NCBI RefSeq assembly: GCF_900698865.1
Contig: NZ_LR217695.1
Coordinates: 124,001 to 188,000 of the forward strand
Direction of reading: 5' to 3'
DNA: 64,000 bases
From: Buchnera aphidicola (Cinara cuneomaculata)
GTDB lineage: Bacteria > Pseudomonadota > Gammaproteobacteria > Enterobacterales > Enterobacteriaceae
The notes beneath the pieces were generated by a model that saw only the letters and a list, made by a program, of their open reading frames with translations, was not told the DNA's origin and ran no database searches. Positions 39,013-52,080 of the stretch are shown one piece after another (position 1 is the stretch's first letter; the number at the start of each line of letters is the position of its first letter). A program made the translations under genes and the position numbers.

Positions 39013-40167
39013 TTATTTTTTTCTTCTCAAAAAAGCCGGTATATCTAAAAAATTTTTTTCATATTTTTTTGGTTGTGATAAATTATTATTGATATTTTTT
39101 TGCGATTGTTTAGTGTGATTTATAATTCGATTTTTTTGTAAGGTTTGATTTCTATAATCTGATAATAATTCTTTGGAAGTCTGGTTTCTCATAAAAGAAA
39201 TTCCAGATCTTTGTTCCATACCAATACCGGTAGCAACTACAGTTACTCGCAAGGCATGATCCATTTGAGGATCTAATGAAGTACCAATGACAACTGTAGC
39301 ATTATCAGAAGAAAATGCACGTATGGTATTTCCAACAGTTTCAAACTCATCTAGTCTTAAATCAAAACCAGCAGTAATATTTACTAATACTCCTCGAGCT
39401 CCAGATAAATCTATATCTTCGAGTAAAGGGCTAGATATAGCGATTTCTGACGCTTCTTCAGCTCTATTTTCTCCTGATGCTGATCCTGTTCCCATCATAG
39501 CATATCCCATTTCTGACATTACAGTTCTTACATCTGCAAAATCTACATTCATTAAACCAGGTCGTGTAATTAGTTCTGCGATTCCTTGTACTGCACCTTT
39601 TAAAACATCATTTGCCGCTCCGAATGCATCTAACAACGATATTCCACGAGTTAATACTTTCAATAATTTATCATTAGGAATAGTAATTAATGAATCAACG
39701 TATTTAGATAACTCATTTAATCCTTGTTCAGCAAAATTCATTCTTTTTTTTCCTTCAAAACTAAAAGGTTTTGTGACTACTGCAACGGTTAAAATGCCAA
39801 GTTCTTTGGCAACTTCCGCTACTACTGGTGCGGCTCCAGTACCTGTTCCACCGCCCATTCCAGCGGCTATAAATACCATATCTGCTCCATCTAATGCTGA
39901 TTTTAATGTTTCTTTATCTTCTTCAGCAGAATCTTTTCCTACATCAGGATTTGCTCCAGCACCTAATCCTTTGGTTATGGTATTACCAATTTGTATCGTT
40001 TGTCCGACAGCTATTTTTCTTAATGCTTGTGCATCCGTATTAATAGCAAAAAATTCAACTCCTTCTATTTTTTCGCGAACCATATGTTCTACAGCATTAC
40101 TACCGCCTCCGCCAACACCAATCACTTTAATAACTGCATCATTATTTAATTCAGACGGTTCAAACAT
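39013..40167 (-). CDS. ftsZ: Cell division GTPase FtsZ
   Basis: FtsZ is the tubulin-like protein that forms the division ring. Its 384 residues equal E. coli FtsZ (383). The tubulin signature GGGTGTGAAPVVAEVAK, the T7 synergy loop region NVDFADVRTVM and GVGGGGSNAVEHMV are intact. The C-terminal conserved peptide FLDIPAFLRRK, which binds FtsA and ZipA, is kept after a short Asn/Gln/Lys-rich linker. The gene uses more G/C than its neighbours, a sign of strong conservation. It follows ftsA by 57 nt. Confidence 0.98.
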   Translation of the reverse strand: MFEPSELNNDAVIKVIGVGGGGSNAVEHMVREKIEGVEFFAINTDAQALRKIAVGQTIQIGNTITKGLGAGANPDVGKDSAEEDKETLKSALDGADMVFIAAGMGGGTGTGAAPVVAEVAKELGILTVAVVTKPFSFEGKKRMNFAEQGLNELSKYVDSLITIPNDKLLKVLTRGISLLDAFGAANDVLKGAVQGIAELITRPGLMNVDFADVRTVMSEMGYAMMGTGSASGENRAEEASEIAISSPLLEDIDLSGARGVLVNITAGFDLRLDEFETVGNTIRAFSSDNATVVIGTSLDPQMDHALRVTVVATGIGMEQRSGISFMRNQTSKELLSDYRNQTLQKNRIINHTKQSQKNINNNLSQPKKYEKNFLDIPAFLRRKK

Positions 40168-40224
40168 AAAATATACTCCATTATATTAAGATATTTAATA
40201 TTATTAAAAATTTTTAAGATTTAA

Positions 40225-41475
40225 TTATTCATGTAACCAGCATTTGATTTGGTTAAATAAATATTGTAAAAATCTCGGAGATTGATTTTTTTTCCGAGAA
40301 GATTGTTGATAATTTTTTCCATATTGTAGTAACCCGATAATAGTAGCATATTCTGGTTGATGAAGATATTCGGGTATTTTGGGTATATTGCAAGGTTTTT
40401 TTATTATAATTTGTGCTTGAAATATTTTATTTGCACATTTTAACAAATGTTTTATTTTTGAAGAACCTCCAGTAAGTATAACATTAGATATTTTTTGATA
40501 TTTATTTTTTTTAATATTGTATTTATCATATAAGTTTATAATTTCATTATTTACTAAGTGTAATAATTCAGTATATCTTGGTTCAATAACTTCAGTTAAA
40601 GATTGATAATGACAGTGATCAATTTTATTACCATTTTTATTAAAAATTTCTATATTTTTACATGTCATAGATAGATCCGCAACAGCATATCCGTATTTTT
40701 TTTTTATAAATTCTGCATCTGAAAATGATAAAGAAAATGCATAAGCAATATCACGTGTAACTGTATTTCCTGCATAAGGAATTACAACATTATGATATAA
40801 AGAGCCTTTTATATGGATACTAACATGCATTGTTTCACCGCCCATATCTACCAAACAGACTCCTGAATTTTTTTCTTCTTCTGTTAAAATCGATAAGCTA
40901 GATGCTAGTCCGGTAAATATAGTTTTTTTAACATTAATTCCGCATTTTTTAATAGCATTAATAATATTTTTTTTAATATTTTTATTGCCTGTAATTAAAT
41001 GTACATTAGCTTGCATGCGTACACCGGATAATCCGATTGGGTTTTTAATTCCCGATTGGTCATCAATAGAAAATTCTTGTGGAATAATATGTAAAATATT
41101 ATGATTATTTTTTATTTTAACAGATTTAGCGGTTTTAATAACTTTTTCTATATCTTTTTTTGTAATTTCTTTACTTTTAATAGGAGTGATACCAATTTCA
41201 TTTTGACAATTAATTTCATTATGTGATATTGATAAATATACAGAATATATTTTACATTTAGCCATTTCTTCTGCGTCATGAATAGAACTATTAATACATT
41301 GTGTTAATAGTTCTAAATTATTAATATTACCTTTTTTTATACCTTGAGTTGGATGTTTACTAAAACCAATTATATCAATAATCCCACATTCAAGAATTTC
41401 TCCTATTAACACAATTATTTTTGTAGTTCCTATTTCTAACCCGACAATGATATTTTTTTTTGTTGAAAGATTCAT
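40225..41475 (-). CDS. ftsA: Cell division protein FtsA
   Basis: FtsA is an actin-like ATPase that anchors FtsZ to the membrane. The 416-residue product (420 in E. coli) has the phosphate-1 motif VGLEIGTTKIIVLIGE, phosphate-2 VCLVDMGGETMHVSI, and the adenosine motif VILTGGSSKIKHL. The C-terminal PRFLQYLFNQIKCWLH can form the amphipathic membrane-targeting helix. The upstream dcw genes murF to ftsQ are missing, so ftsA now follows a MurE-like gene across a 339-nt gap. Confidence 0.96.
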   Translation of the reverse strand: MNLSTKKNIIVGLEIGTTKIIVLIGEILECGIIDIIGFSKHPTQGIKKGNINNLELLTQCINSSIHDAEEMAKCKIYSVYLSISHNEINCQNEIGITPIKSKEITKKDIEKVIKTAKSVKIKNNHNILHIIPQEFSIDDQSGIKNPIGLSGVRMQANVHLITGNKNIKKNIINAIKKCGINVKKTIFTGLASSLSILTEEEKNSGVCLVDMGGETMHVSIHIKGSLYHNVVIPYAGNTVTRDIAYAFSLSFSDAEFIKKKYGYAVADLSMTCKNIEIFNKNGNKIDHCHYQSLTEVIEPRYTELLHLVNNEIINLYDKYNIKKNKYQKISNVILTGGSSKIKHLLKCANKIFQAQIIIKKPCNIPKIPEYLHQPEYATIIGLLQYGKNYQQSSRKKNQSPRFLQYLFNQIKCWLHE

Positions 41476-41814: not shown

Positions 41815-43308
41815 TTATTCGTACACTGTATCAGTAGAAACAATATTTTTTTTTGATAATAATTTCATATATTTGATAATTTTTTTTACTTTTTTTTCTT
41901 CTTCTGAAACTAATATTATATCATATTTATTAGTTTTATAAAAAATAAATTGTATTGCTTTTTTTATTTTGTAAAATATAAAAAATTTATTTTTTTTATA
42001 ATAATTCATTATTATCTCATTAATAATTAATAATTCATGGTTTTTATGAGGATCATTATTAATTAATATGATAAAATCAGAAAATTTTTCTACAATGCTC
42101 CCTATGATTTTTCTCTCACTGATATTTTGTGTTTTTTTATATCCTAAGATACACCAGATATTTTTATATTGATAATTTTTTAATGAAGATAATGTTCGAT
42201 ACAATATTTGTGGTGTATGAATATTATTAATAATAAATAAAGGACTATTATTTATCTGAATTTTTTCCATTTTACGATGAATAGGTCGTAAAAATTTACT
42301 GCTTGGAATCAATATGTTTAATGGATGTTTTAATGATATCATTGTTGCCATTGCGAGAATTATATTGGTAACATTAAAGTCACCAATTAATGAGCTATAT
42401 AAATGCCCGGACCCCCATGTTGAATTAAAAAAAATTTTTGTACGCAAAGTACTATAAATAATTTTGATAGTATGAATCCAATATTTTGTATTAAAGATAT
42501 CGTTTTTTTTAAGTGTAGTAATAAATATAATTTTTTTATTTTTTATTTTGTTTATCCAATTATTTGCAATGTTTTCATTTCCATTTAAAATAATGGTTTT
42601 TATTGTATTTTTATTTAAAAAAGAAAACTTAATTTTTTCTTTTTCAAACATATTTTTCTGTCCGTTTATATTGTTGTTAGTTATATTAGTACATATTATT
42701 GATTCAAATTTTAAATAAGATATTTGTTTTTGCATTAATACGGTATAAGGCATTTCTAATATGGTAAGATCTATTTTTTTTTTTACTAACCGATATAGTA
42801 TTTTTTGAACATTATTATAGTAATGAATACTATTCTTCATAGTTGATTGAAATATATTTTTCGTATCTTCTAAATTTTTTATTACACCGATTTTTTTATT
42901 AATTAATTGTTCCCATTGTGCGATTAAGTTAGTAACAGTAGTTTTTCCGTAAGTTCCTATTACTCCGATTAATTTAATTTTTTTTTGTGGATAACTAAAA
43001 AATCTTTCATATATATCATGGATATAATTTCTTAATTTTTTAAAATAAATAATAAGTGTATTATATTTTGTTGATATACATAATCCGTGTTTATTTTTTT
43101 TTGTTTCATATAAAACGACATTTGCTTTATTTTTAATAGCATTTATAATAGATTTTTTATGTATATTTATTTTTTGGTTTAATGATATAAATAAATCACC
43201 AATTTTTATTTTTTGACTGCATCTGGTGATATTACAAATTTTTTTTTGAGGAATATTATTGATCCAAGGATTTAATAGTATTTGGATATTGTCTATTTTT
43301 TTTATCAT
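41815..43308 (-). CDS. murE: MurE-like ligase with degenerate substrate and catalytic motifs
   Basis: The 497-residue protein aligns end to end with E. coli MurE (495), the ligase that adds meso-diaminopimelate to the peptidoglycan precursor. Kept: LLNPWIN at the start, GDLFISL, the ATP loop GTYGKTTVTN (118-127), a lysine at 227 where the carbamylated one is expected, GDFNVTNIILAMAT (309-322) and HTP (364-366). Lost: DSR is CSQ, EVSSH is EMPYT (185-189), SRDHLDYHG is TNNNINGQK, GCGGDRDKGKRP is replaced, the DNPR motif reads NNDPH (417-421), and GKGHE is gone. Other mur genes of the cluster are absent. The frame is intact, so either it has another role or it is decaying late. Confidence 0.82.
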   Translation of the reverse strand: MIKKIDNIQILLNPWINNIPQKKICNITRCSQKIKIGDLFISLNQKINIHKKSIINAIKNKANVVLYETKKNKHGLCISTKYNTLIIYFKKLRNYIHDIYERFFSYPQKKIKLIGVIGTYGKTTVTNLIAQWEQLINKKIGVIKNLEDTKNIFQSTMKNSIHYYNNVQKILYRLVKKKIDLTILEMPYTVLMQKQISYLKFESIICTNITNNNINGQKNMFEKEKIKFSFLNKNTIKTIILNGNENIANNWINKIKNKKIIFITTLKKNDIFNTKYWIHTIKIIYSTLRTKIFFNSTWGSGHLYSSLIGDFNVTNIILAMATMISLKHPLNILIPSSKFLRPIHRKMEKIQINNSPLFIINNIHTPQILYRTLSSLKNYQYKNIWCILGYKKTQNISERKIIGSIVEKFSDFIILINNDPHKNHELLIINEIIMNYYKKNKFFIFYKIKKAIQFIFYKTNKYDIILVSEEEKKVKKIIKYMKLLSKKNIVSTDTVYE

Positions 43309-43335: not shown

Positions 43336-44262
43336 TTATAATATTTCAGCAATTCTTAATATTGCGCTGCGTGCGCGAGGGTTTTTTTGAATTTCTTGAT
43401 TGCTAGGTTTAATTTTTTTAATAATTTTCAATTTTTTTTTTGAATATTTAATTATTTGATTATTAGAAATCGGTAATCCTTGGGGAAAACTAATATGACC
43501 ACTATTTTTTTTAAAAAAATTTTTTATAATTCTACTTTCAATTGAATGAAAGCTAATAATAGCTATTCGTGCTTTTTTTTTTAATATCTTTGTAGATAGA
43601 TTTAAAGTTTTTTTTAATGAATCTATTTCAGAGTTAATATAAATGCGTATTGCTTGAAAAGTGCGTGTAGCGGGATGCTTTTGTTTATATTTGTATTGTG
43701 TTGGTATTATTTTTTTTATAATATCAACCAAATCAAATGTATTTATAATAAGATTTTTTTTATTCTGGTTAACAATAGCATAAGAGATTTTTTTAGCGTA
43801 TCGTTCTTCTCCAAAATTTTTTAAAACATATTCTATTTTTTTTTGACTAGATTTTTGTAACCATTTCCATGCCGGTATTCCTGATTGATTATTCATTCGC
43901 ATATCTAATGGTCCATTTTTCATAAACGAAAAACCTCTATCAGCTATATCTAATTGTACTGATGAAATTCCTAAATCTAATAGAATTCCATTAACTCGTA
44001 TATTATTACGAAAATATAAATTTTTAATAATGTTAGAGAAATTTCCGTATTTAATAAAAAATCTTTTATCTTGTATTTTTTTACCTATTCTTATAGAATA
44101 AGGATCTTGATCAATAGCGTATAATGTTCCTTTAGGTCCAATATTTTTTAATATTTCTAATGAATGCCCCCCTGATCCAAATGTCCCATCAATATATGTA
44201 CCTGTCGGTTTAATTTTTAAAGCATTTATTGATTCTTGGAGTAGTACTGGTATATGTAACAT
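43336..44262 (-). CDS. rsmH: 16S rRNA (cytosine-1402-N4) methyltransferase RsmH
   Basis: RsmH (MraW) methylates C1402 of 16S rRNA near the decoding site. Its 308 residues match E. coli (313). The N-terminal HIPVLLQESINAL, the SAM loop YIDGTFGSGGHSLEIL, DLGISSVQLDIADRGFSF, HPATRTFQAIRIYIN and the C-terminal NPRARSAILRIAE are all intact. It begins the dcw remnant; mraZ upstream and ftsL and ftsI downstream are missing, so only 27 nt separate it from the MurE-like gene. Confidence 0.97.
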   Translation of the reverse strand: MLHIPVLLQESINALKIKPTGTYIDGTFGSGGHSLEILKNIGPKGTLYAIDQDPYSIRIGKKIQDKRFFIKYGNFSNIIKNLYFRNNIRVNGILLDLGISSVQLDIADRGFSFMKNGPLDMRMNNQSGIPAWKWLQKSSQKKIEYVLKNFGEERYAKKISYAIVNQNKKNLIINTFDLVDIIKKIIPTQYKYKQKHPATRTFQAIRIYINSEIDSLKKTLNLSTKILKKKARIAIISFHSIESRIIKNFFKKNSGHISFPQGLPISNNQIIKYSKKKLKIIKKIKPSNQEIQKNPRARSAILRIAEIL

Positions 44263-51981: not shown

Positions 51982-52080
51982 TTATTAATTTTTAATTTTA
52001 ATGATGAAAAATAATAATCATATTTATTAAAAAATTTAATATTTAATATTTTATATTTTATATAGGAACGTAACACTTAT

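Follow-up and report, generated by a model that had tools for sequence, protein, structure and literature searches.

Background

The genes for peptidoglycan synthesis are described in passages of PMC9116674 as nearly all lost from the Buchnera of the Lachninae, with none remaining in that of C. cedri. In passages of PMC10591338, 53 percent of the 15 Lachninae Buchnera tabulated have murE and 0 percent have murA, murB, murC, murD, murF, murG, murI, mraY or ddl; in the same excerpts the other mur genes except murJ stand at 0 percent, MreB and MurG are both at 0 percent (Tables 2 and 1), and most strains have lost all precursor genes. The part of PMC11188193 that lists the mur losses of the Lachninae does not name murE. 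Here we describe such a leftover, a murE-derived gene of the Buchnera aphidicola of Cinara cuneomaculata (assembly GCF_900698865.1), in a stretch of 64,000 nucleotides (contig NZ_LR217695.1, positions 124,001 to 188,000) that we call the window. The occurrence of murE in roughly half of the Lachninae Buchnera is already on record in PMC10591338, whose Table 1 entries are probably the same gene. Its passages tabulate presence, without mention of changed motifs or selection, and in the literature consulted, mostly open-access text without supplements, no discussion was found of a changed or repurposed Buchnera murE or of selection on the gene.

The closest described systems are MurE of E. coli (1e8c, 7b53) and PAP11 of plant plastids, a MurE descendant that sits in RNA polymerase and is presented, in the portion of PMC12681378 seen, as a precedent for the reuse of MurE outside wall synthesis; the window protein would share that kind of history. 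Cyanophycin synthetase and other members of the Mur ligase superfamily have Mur ligase domains in common with it, but the window gene scores far better as MurE (the cyanophycin models reach E 9.6e-15) and stands at the murE locus.

A MurE homologue without its substrate sites

The gene in question is the following:

41815..43308, minus strand: murE-derived gene, 497 codons, recognised by its frame, profile matches, sequence matches and predicted fold

It begins with ATG and has no stop inside. The match to MurE runs from end to end (NCBIfam NF001123, E 2.9e-83, residues 7-470; TIGR01085 murE, E 5.2e-62), three E. coli MurE sequences match the protein at E 3e-53 or better, Pfam detects the middle and C-terminal Mur ligase domains, and a structure model predicts the complete three-domain Mur fold, all of which bears out the initial annotation of a full-length MurE homologue. 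The order of the locus agrees with this descent, and the nearest database proteins are Buchnera aphidicola entries named MurE or "Mur ligase family". The curated MurE cut-offs are not reached (210.3 of 257.3 bits for TIGR01085; 280.2 of 586 for NF001123). One further relative, P0004, lies on a 50.9-kilobase contig labelled as a metagenome-assembled genome of Janthinobacterium lividum and is 71 percent identical to the window gene; that contig is probably mislabelled Buchnera.

We compared 16 genomes of the genus, G000 to G015, where G000 is the window's own genome (442,546 bases in three contigs). Eight carry an intact copy of the gene (G000, G001, G002, G004, G005, G006, G007 and G011), here called the orphans. 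Motifs were read in the window protein and six relatives (seven orphan proteins, of which P0003 starts too late for the first two positions), and the eight orphans were set against nine canonical MurE chosen by their motifs, namely four database relatives, that of E. coli and four from genomes with multiple Mur ligases, no pair exceeding 90 percent identity. For orientation we used lists of what we take to be the ligand positions of E. coli MurE and the seven invariant residues of Mur ligases (K, E, H, N, N, R, D). The sites concerned are these:

42937..42957, minus strand: P-loop GTYGKTT, residues 118-124; the N of GTNGKTT is Y in all eight intact orphans
42628..42630, minus strand: Lys227, kept, aligned with K225 of E. 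coli MurE, presumably the carbamylated lysine
42364..42375, minus strand: N312 to N315 of FNVTN, both invariant N kept
42658..42681, minus strand: SRDHLDYH site, residues 210-217; the His, which we take to be a metal site, is lost and the residue varies among orphans
42265..42276, minus strand: RKME for GRME, residues 345-348, Arg to Lys fixed
42211..42228, minus strand: NNIHTP for DYAHTP, residues 361-366, Asp to Asn fixed
42046..42057, minus strand: residues 418-421, the place of the diaminopimelate motif DNPR, which is lost; the residues now vary
41890..41904, minus strand: GKGHE site, residues 469-473, with fixed changes of G to E and of E to K; a predicted helix (471-486) begins here

The P-loop residues G, T, G, K, T and T, together with E183, K225, N308 and N311, are kept in all seven orphan proteins, and GTYGKTT with its catalytic Lys is found in 8/8 intact genes. 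Of the seven presumed invariants, K, E, N and N are kept and three carry new residues in 8/8, two of these fixed: relative to the E. coli enzyme H211 is lost, R342 has become K and D357 N, besides the change of N118 to Y in the P-loop. Most of the positions for uridine diphosphate-N-acetylmuramic acid (UDP-MurNAc) and for diaminopimelate are changed as well; a few of the former still match in some orphans (e.g., S29 and Q191), and DNPR is gone, as are G and E in GKGHE. Confidence in the structure model is low at residues 213-216. The initial annotation had considered both substrate sites gone, as most of their positions are in the alignment, and the stretches that it named, GTYGKTT and FNVTN among them, read as stated. 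It had also counted six motifs as replaced: this holds for DSR, SRDHLDYHG, GCGGDRDKGKRP, DNPR and GKGHE, while the E of EVSSH is kept. Its statement that almost all ligase motifs are lost is too strong for the nucleotide and metal site, where E, Lys and both N remain.

The two kinds of site also differ in how freely they vary. Among 102 positions invariant in the nine canonical MurE, 35 are kept in 8/8 orphans, 27 carry one shared replacement and 40 vary. Variability is higher at the 18 substrate positions than at random sites (2.83 versus 1.78 distinct residues; 0 of 20,000 draws), and the same is seen within the 102 positions, where 12 substrate sites average 2.75 distinct residues against 1.48 for the 90 others (P 5e-5). 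The P-loop, the invariants and K225, 14 positions with the changed ones counted, are less variable than random sites (1.14 distinct residues; P 0.003). Variable substrate sites beside near-invariant P-loop and catalytic sites indicate that constraint has gone from the substrate pocket and not from the nucleotide pocket or the remainder of the protein.

Selection on the gene

The ratio of nonsynonymous to synonymous divergence (dN/dS) was estimated with codon models over the eight intact genes, distant pairs being saturated in dS and given less weight; the G000 coding sequences in the pairwise estimates and in the six-gene tree used below lack the start codon and include the stop codon. Over eight genomes dN/dS is 0.084 for murE, 0.067 for rsmH, 0.054 for ftsA, 0.053 for map, 0.046 for ilvI, 0.042 for ilvH and 0.010 for ftsZ, and by domain murE gives 0.096, 0.078 and 0.088. 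The closest pairs have 0.091 at dS 0.22 (G002/G004) and 0.048 at dS 0.32 (G006/G007), and four pairs with dS of 0.22-0.84 range over 0.048-0.099, far from the value near 1 of a pseudogene. The amino-acid sequence of murE is under purifying selection along its whole length, as the comparison across related Buchnera that the initial annotation proposed has brought out. Its argument that such a frame does not stay open by chance is borne out by a neutral simulation (substitutions only, starting from the G002 gene, four distances, 300 replicates each), in which the mean number of stops ran from 13 to 46 and none of the 300 replicates remained open at any distance; at 0.11 substitutions per site the mean was 13.4 stops, again with 0/300 open. 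On both counts late decay is rejected for the eight intact genes.

The wall pathway elsewhere

The window gene is the only match to Mur_ligase_M in its own genome (E 0.001), unlike the case in E. coli, and this speaks against MurC, MurD and MurF as well; across the genus nine genomes have one such match and seven have none. Profile searches for the MraY, transpeptidase, FtsW/RodA and UppS families, which detected their family in 12, 10, 10 and 14 of 14 control genomes, respectively, found no match in any of the 16, G000 included. EPSP synthase matches once in each of the 16; the G000 match is AroA, so no MurA was found in that genome. At the locus neither murG nor ddlB was found, in a check confined to it. 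A complete mur set elsewhere in the genome, which the initial annotation took, together with compensating motifs, as the sign of an ordinary MurE, was not found, the genome-wide searches covering the other Mur ligases, MraY, transpeptidase, FtsW/RodA, UppS and MurA and not MurB, MurG or Ddl.

A second wall-pathway orphan is murJ (lipid II flippase family), which has an intact frame in 7/16 genomes (G005, G006, G007, G008, G010, G013 and G014; loci L080-L086), all without MraY and UppS matches, and a dN/dS of 0.030 over those seven. Its occurrence does not follow that of murE among the 16 genomes, intact murE being present in three of the seven murJ genomes.

Further afield, a PF08245 scan of 198 genomes drawn from a larger family gave seven outside the genus with exactly one match. 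In none of the seven did the MurE alignment find a match at E 0.001, so the single ligase there is a different Mur ligase. Searched against 25 genomes, the MurE alignment found MurE in six, each with at least three Mur ligases. A search of genome contigs for a related locus returned no relative, in a search from which records near the window may be excluded.

Neighbouring genes and losses across the genus

The surroundings of the gene are as follows:

43336..44262, minus strand: rsmH, upstream neighbour, matched in 16/16 genomes of the genus
40225..41475, minus strand: ftsA, downstream neighbour, by family match
39013..40167, minus strand: ftsZ, by family match
51982..52080, no strand: short spacer after frr where uppS would be expected; frr and the next gene, bamA, were named by eye

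The gene starts 27 nucleotides after rsmH on the same strand and is the sole gene left between rsmH and ftsA; murF, mraY, murD, murG, murC, ddlB, ftsI and ftsW are missing there, as had been noted at the outset, and the uppS that had been missed after frr has no family match in the whole genome. A 300-codon open frame antisense to ftsZ (39287-40189, plus strand) is probably a by-product of ftsZ codon usage.

Besides the eight intact copies, the genus has one frameshifted copy (G015), one stop-riddled relic (G003) and six genomes with no match. The relic, between rsmH and ftsA of G003 (L034), has 15 stops in one matched stretch; lying beside open neighbour genes, it is a natural neutral contrast to the intact copies. 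In the seven genomes whose murE is a relic or has no match the longest stop-free stretch between rsmH and ftsA is 138 residues, against 506 in G000, and this maximum comes from G010, where the measured space takes in part of ftsA. In G010 (L041) there is no ATG near the expected ftsA start and ilvI lies in two frames, through damaged genes or sequence errors. On the six-gene protein tree, in which ftsA and ilvI of G010 are incomplete, the lineages concerned comprise G009, two pairs (G010/G013 and G008/G014) and G003 grouped with G012 (support 50), which amounts to about 3 to 5 losses according to how the weak nodes are resolved. In G015 (L046) a frameshift near the murE start, at a stretch of 11 A that begins at codon 43, splits the gene over two frames, and the downstream open frame of 456 codons still has a dN/dS of 0.083 against G001 at dS 1.20, so the break is either recent or tolerated. 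Rescue of this frame by transcription slippage is possible in principle, and passages of PMC5574713 report no restored frame detected in Buchnera. The frameshift and the relic together show murE to be dispensable in some lineages. The seven genomes with no match or only a relic all keep rsmH, and ftsA and ftsZ are matched in all 16, those seven included.

What the protein may do

We incline, if only modestly, to a MurE descendant co-opted as a scaffold or switch that depends on a nucleotide and works with some partner other than RNA polymerase. Judged by its residues, the orphan protein is probably dead as a ligase and probably still binds nucleotide through the P-loop, E183, the carbamylated-Lys position and FNxxN, and an ATP-dependent (adenosine triphosphate-dependent) role may be read from these kept residues. 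The descendant would have outlived the peptidoglycan pathway and then been co-opted, keeping the predicted three-domain Mur ligase fold whole and losing most of the residues that hold UDP-MurNAc-dipeptide and diaminopimelate; ATP or adenosine diphosphate (ADP) would be bound at the kept site, and the protein would contact some other cytoplasmic machine. Such a binder of ATP or ADP would agree with constraint along the whole length and with the retention of the nucleotide site but not of the substrate site. Passages of PMC4929429 report Mur enzymes as binders of MreB, MraY and MurG; with these gone and FtsA and FtsZ remaining, a first guess at the machine would be the remaining division apparatus, FtsA/FtsZ here and the Min proteins of PMC10591338. 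A partnership with the division machinery is a tentative idea, which we doubt rather than expect, and for FtsA/FtsZ in particular it is plausible on the basis of gene proximity. As for a former wall enzyme that, in wall-less Buchnera of Cinara-type aphids, is now ligase-dead and nucleotide-binding, with a new role such as gating or scaffolding a reduced FtsA/FtsZ machine, and thus an independent counterpart of the plastid co-option of MurE, we hold the case to be evenly balanced. Purifying selection favours the new role proposed in the initial annotation over decay, with the reservation that the gene is dispensable in some lineages.

Several observations weigh against co-option. The gene is lost or broken in 8/16 genomes, several times on the tree, so its task is dispensable or replaceable, and genomes that lost it still keep ftsA and ftsZ, which therefore do not need it. 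None of the other six genes compared has as high a dN/dS, and an argument from the murE stem is weak, as the ilvH stem is nearly as long (4.7). Sites that vary in canonical MurE show no unusual conservation within the clade (61/142 invariant), so that no new interface is located; by eye there are no newly conserved patches, the block at 61-80 having 14/18 invariant positions (25 blocks). The 27 shared replacements could be inheritance from a common ancestor under constraint. Nor is a kept P-loop proof of nucleotide binding in this sequence, R342 and D357, which we take to be ATP-contacting positions in Mur ligases, being changed.

In 8/8 the P-loop (except N118), E183, the lysine at the carbamylated position and the two N of FNxxN are kept; with a whole predicted Mur fold and constraint in all three domains, this would also suit an ATP-dependent ligase that attaches another amino acid to another acceptor. 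We think this unlikely, because H211 has given way to varying residues, R342 is K and D357 is N in 8/8, and the positions that once served the substrates change faster than the others, unlike those of a pocket reshaped but constrained. A MurE-like subunit of RNA polymerase is quite unlikely, for all that the spinach PAP11 chain likewise keeps a P-loop with a changed residue (GTHGKTT) and has N at the metal-site His position in the alignment: such resemblance may only reflect common MurE descent, PAP11 retains R and D where the window protein has other residues, and nothing ties the window gene to RNA polymerase. PAP11 is moreover a protein of about 770 residues, in which the match starts at about residue 232-336, and its long N-terminal part is absent from the 497-residue window protein.

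Repeated loss, seen in the G015 frameshift, the G003 relic and the six genomes without a match, is what a functionless remnant whose frame is not yet broken would lead one to expect. Late decay of this kind is nevertheless very unlikely, given the low dN/dS of the four pairs, the simulation that left no open frame and the constraint even on the downstream frame of G015; it is refuted for the eight intact genes over the period in which they diverged, although very recent relaxation in the window gene alone, whose nearest relative, G001, stands at dS of about 2, would fall outside this. Gene lists can mislead, and passages of PMC9116674 report wall synthesis in the Buchnera of Rhopalosiphum maidis despite the loss of murC, murE and murF, so that an ordinary MurE in a patchwork pathway shared with a co-resident symbiont or host deserves mention. 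With most UDP-MurNAc and diaminopimelate positions lost, scores below the NCBIfam cut-offs and no MraY, UppS, FtsW/RodA or transpeptidase match in the genus, we regard it as highly improbable. Least credible of all is that murE is kept for a non-protein reason such as a contribution to a transcript shared with rsmH, 27 nucleotides away on the same strand; selection acts on amino acids in every domain, and rsmH persists in the seven genomes that lack a murE match or have only the relic.

Implications

Small genomes shed unused genes readily, and murE is a relic or gone in sister lineages; a gene of 1.5 kilobases that stays under purifying selection after the loss of its pathway should do something that matters. 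If co-option is the right explanation, this would be a second independent repurposing of MurE beside PAP11, in an endosymbiont and not in an organelle. The presence of murE in a genome should not be counted as evidence of wall synthesis.
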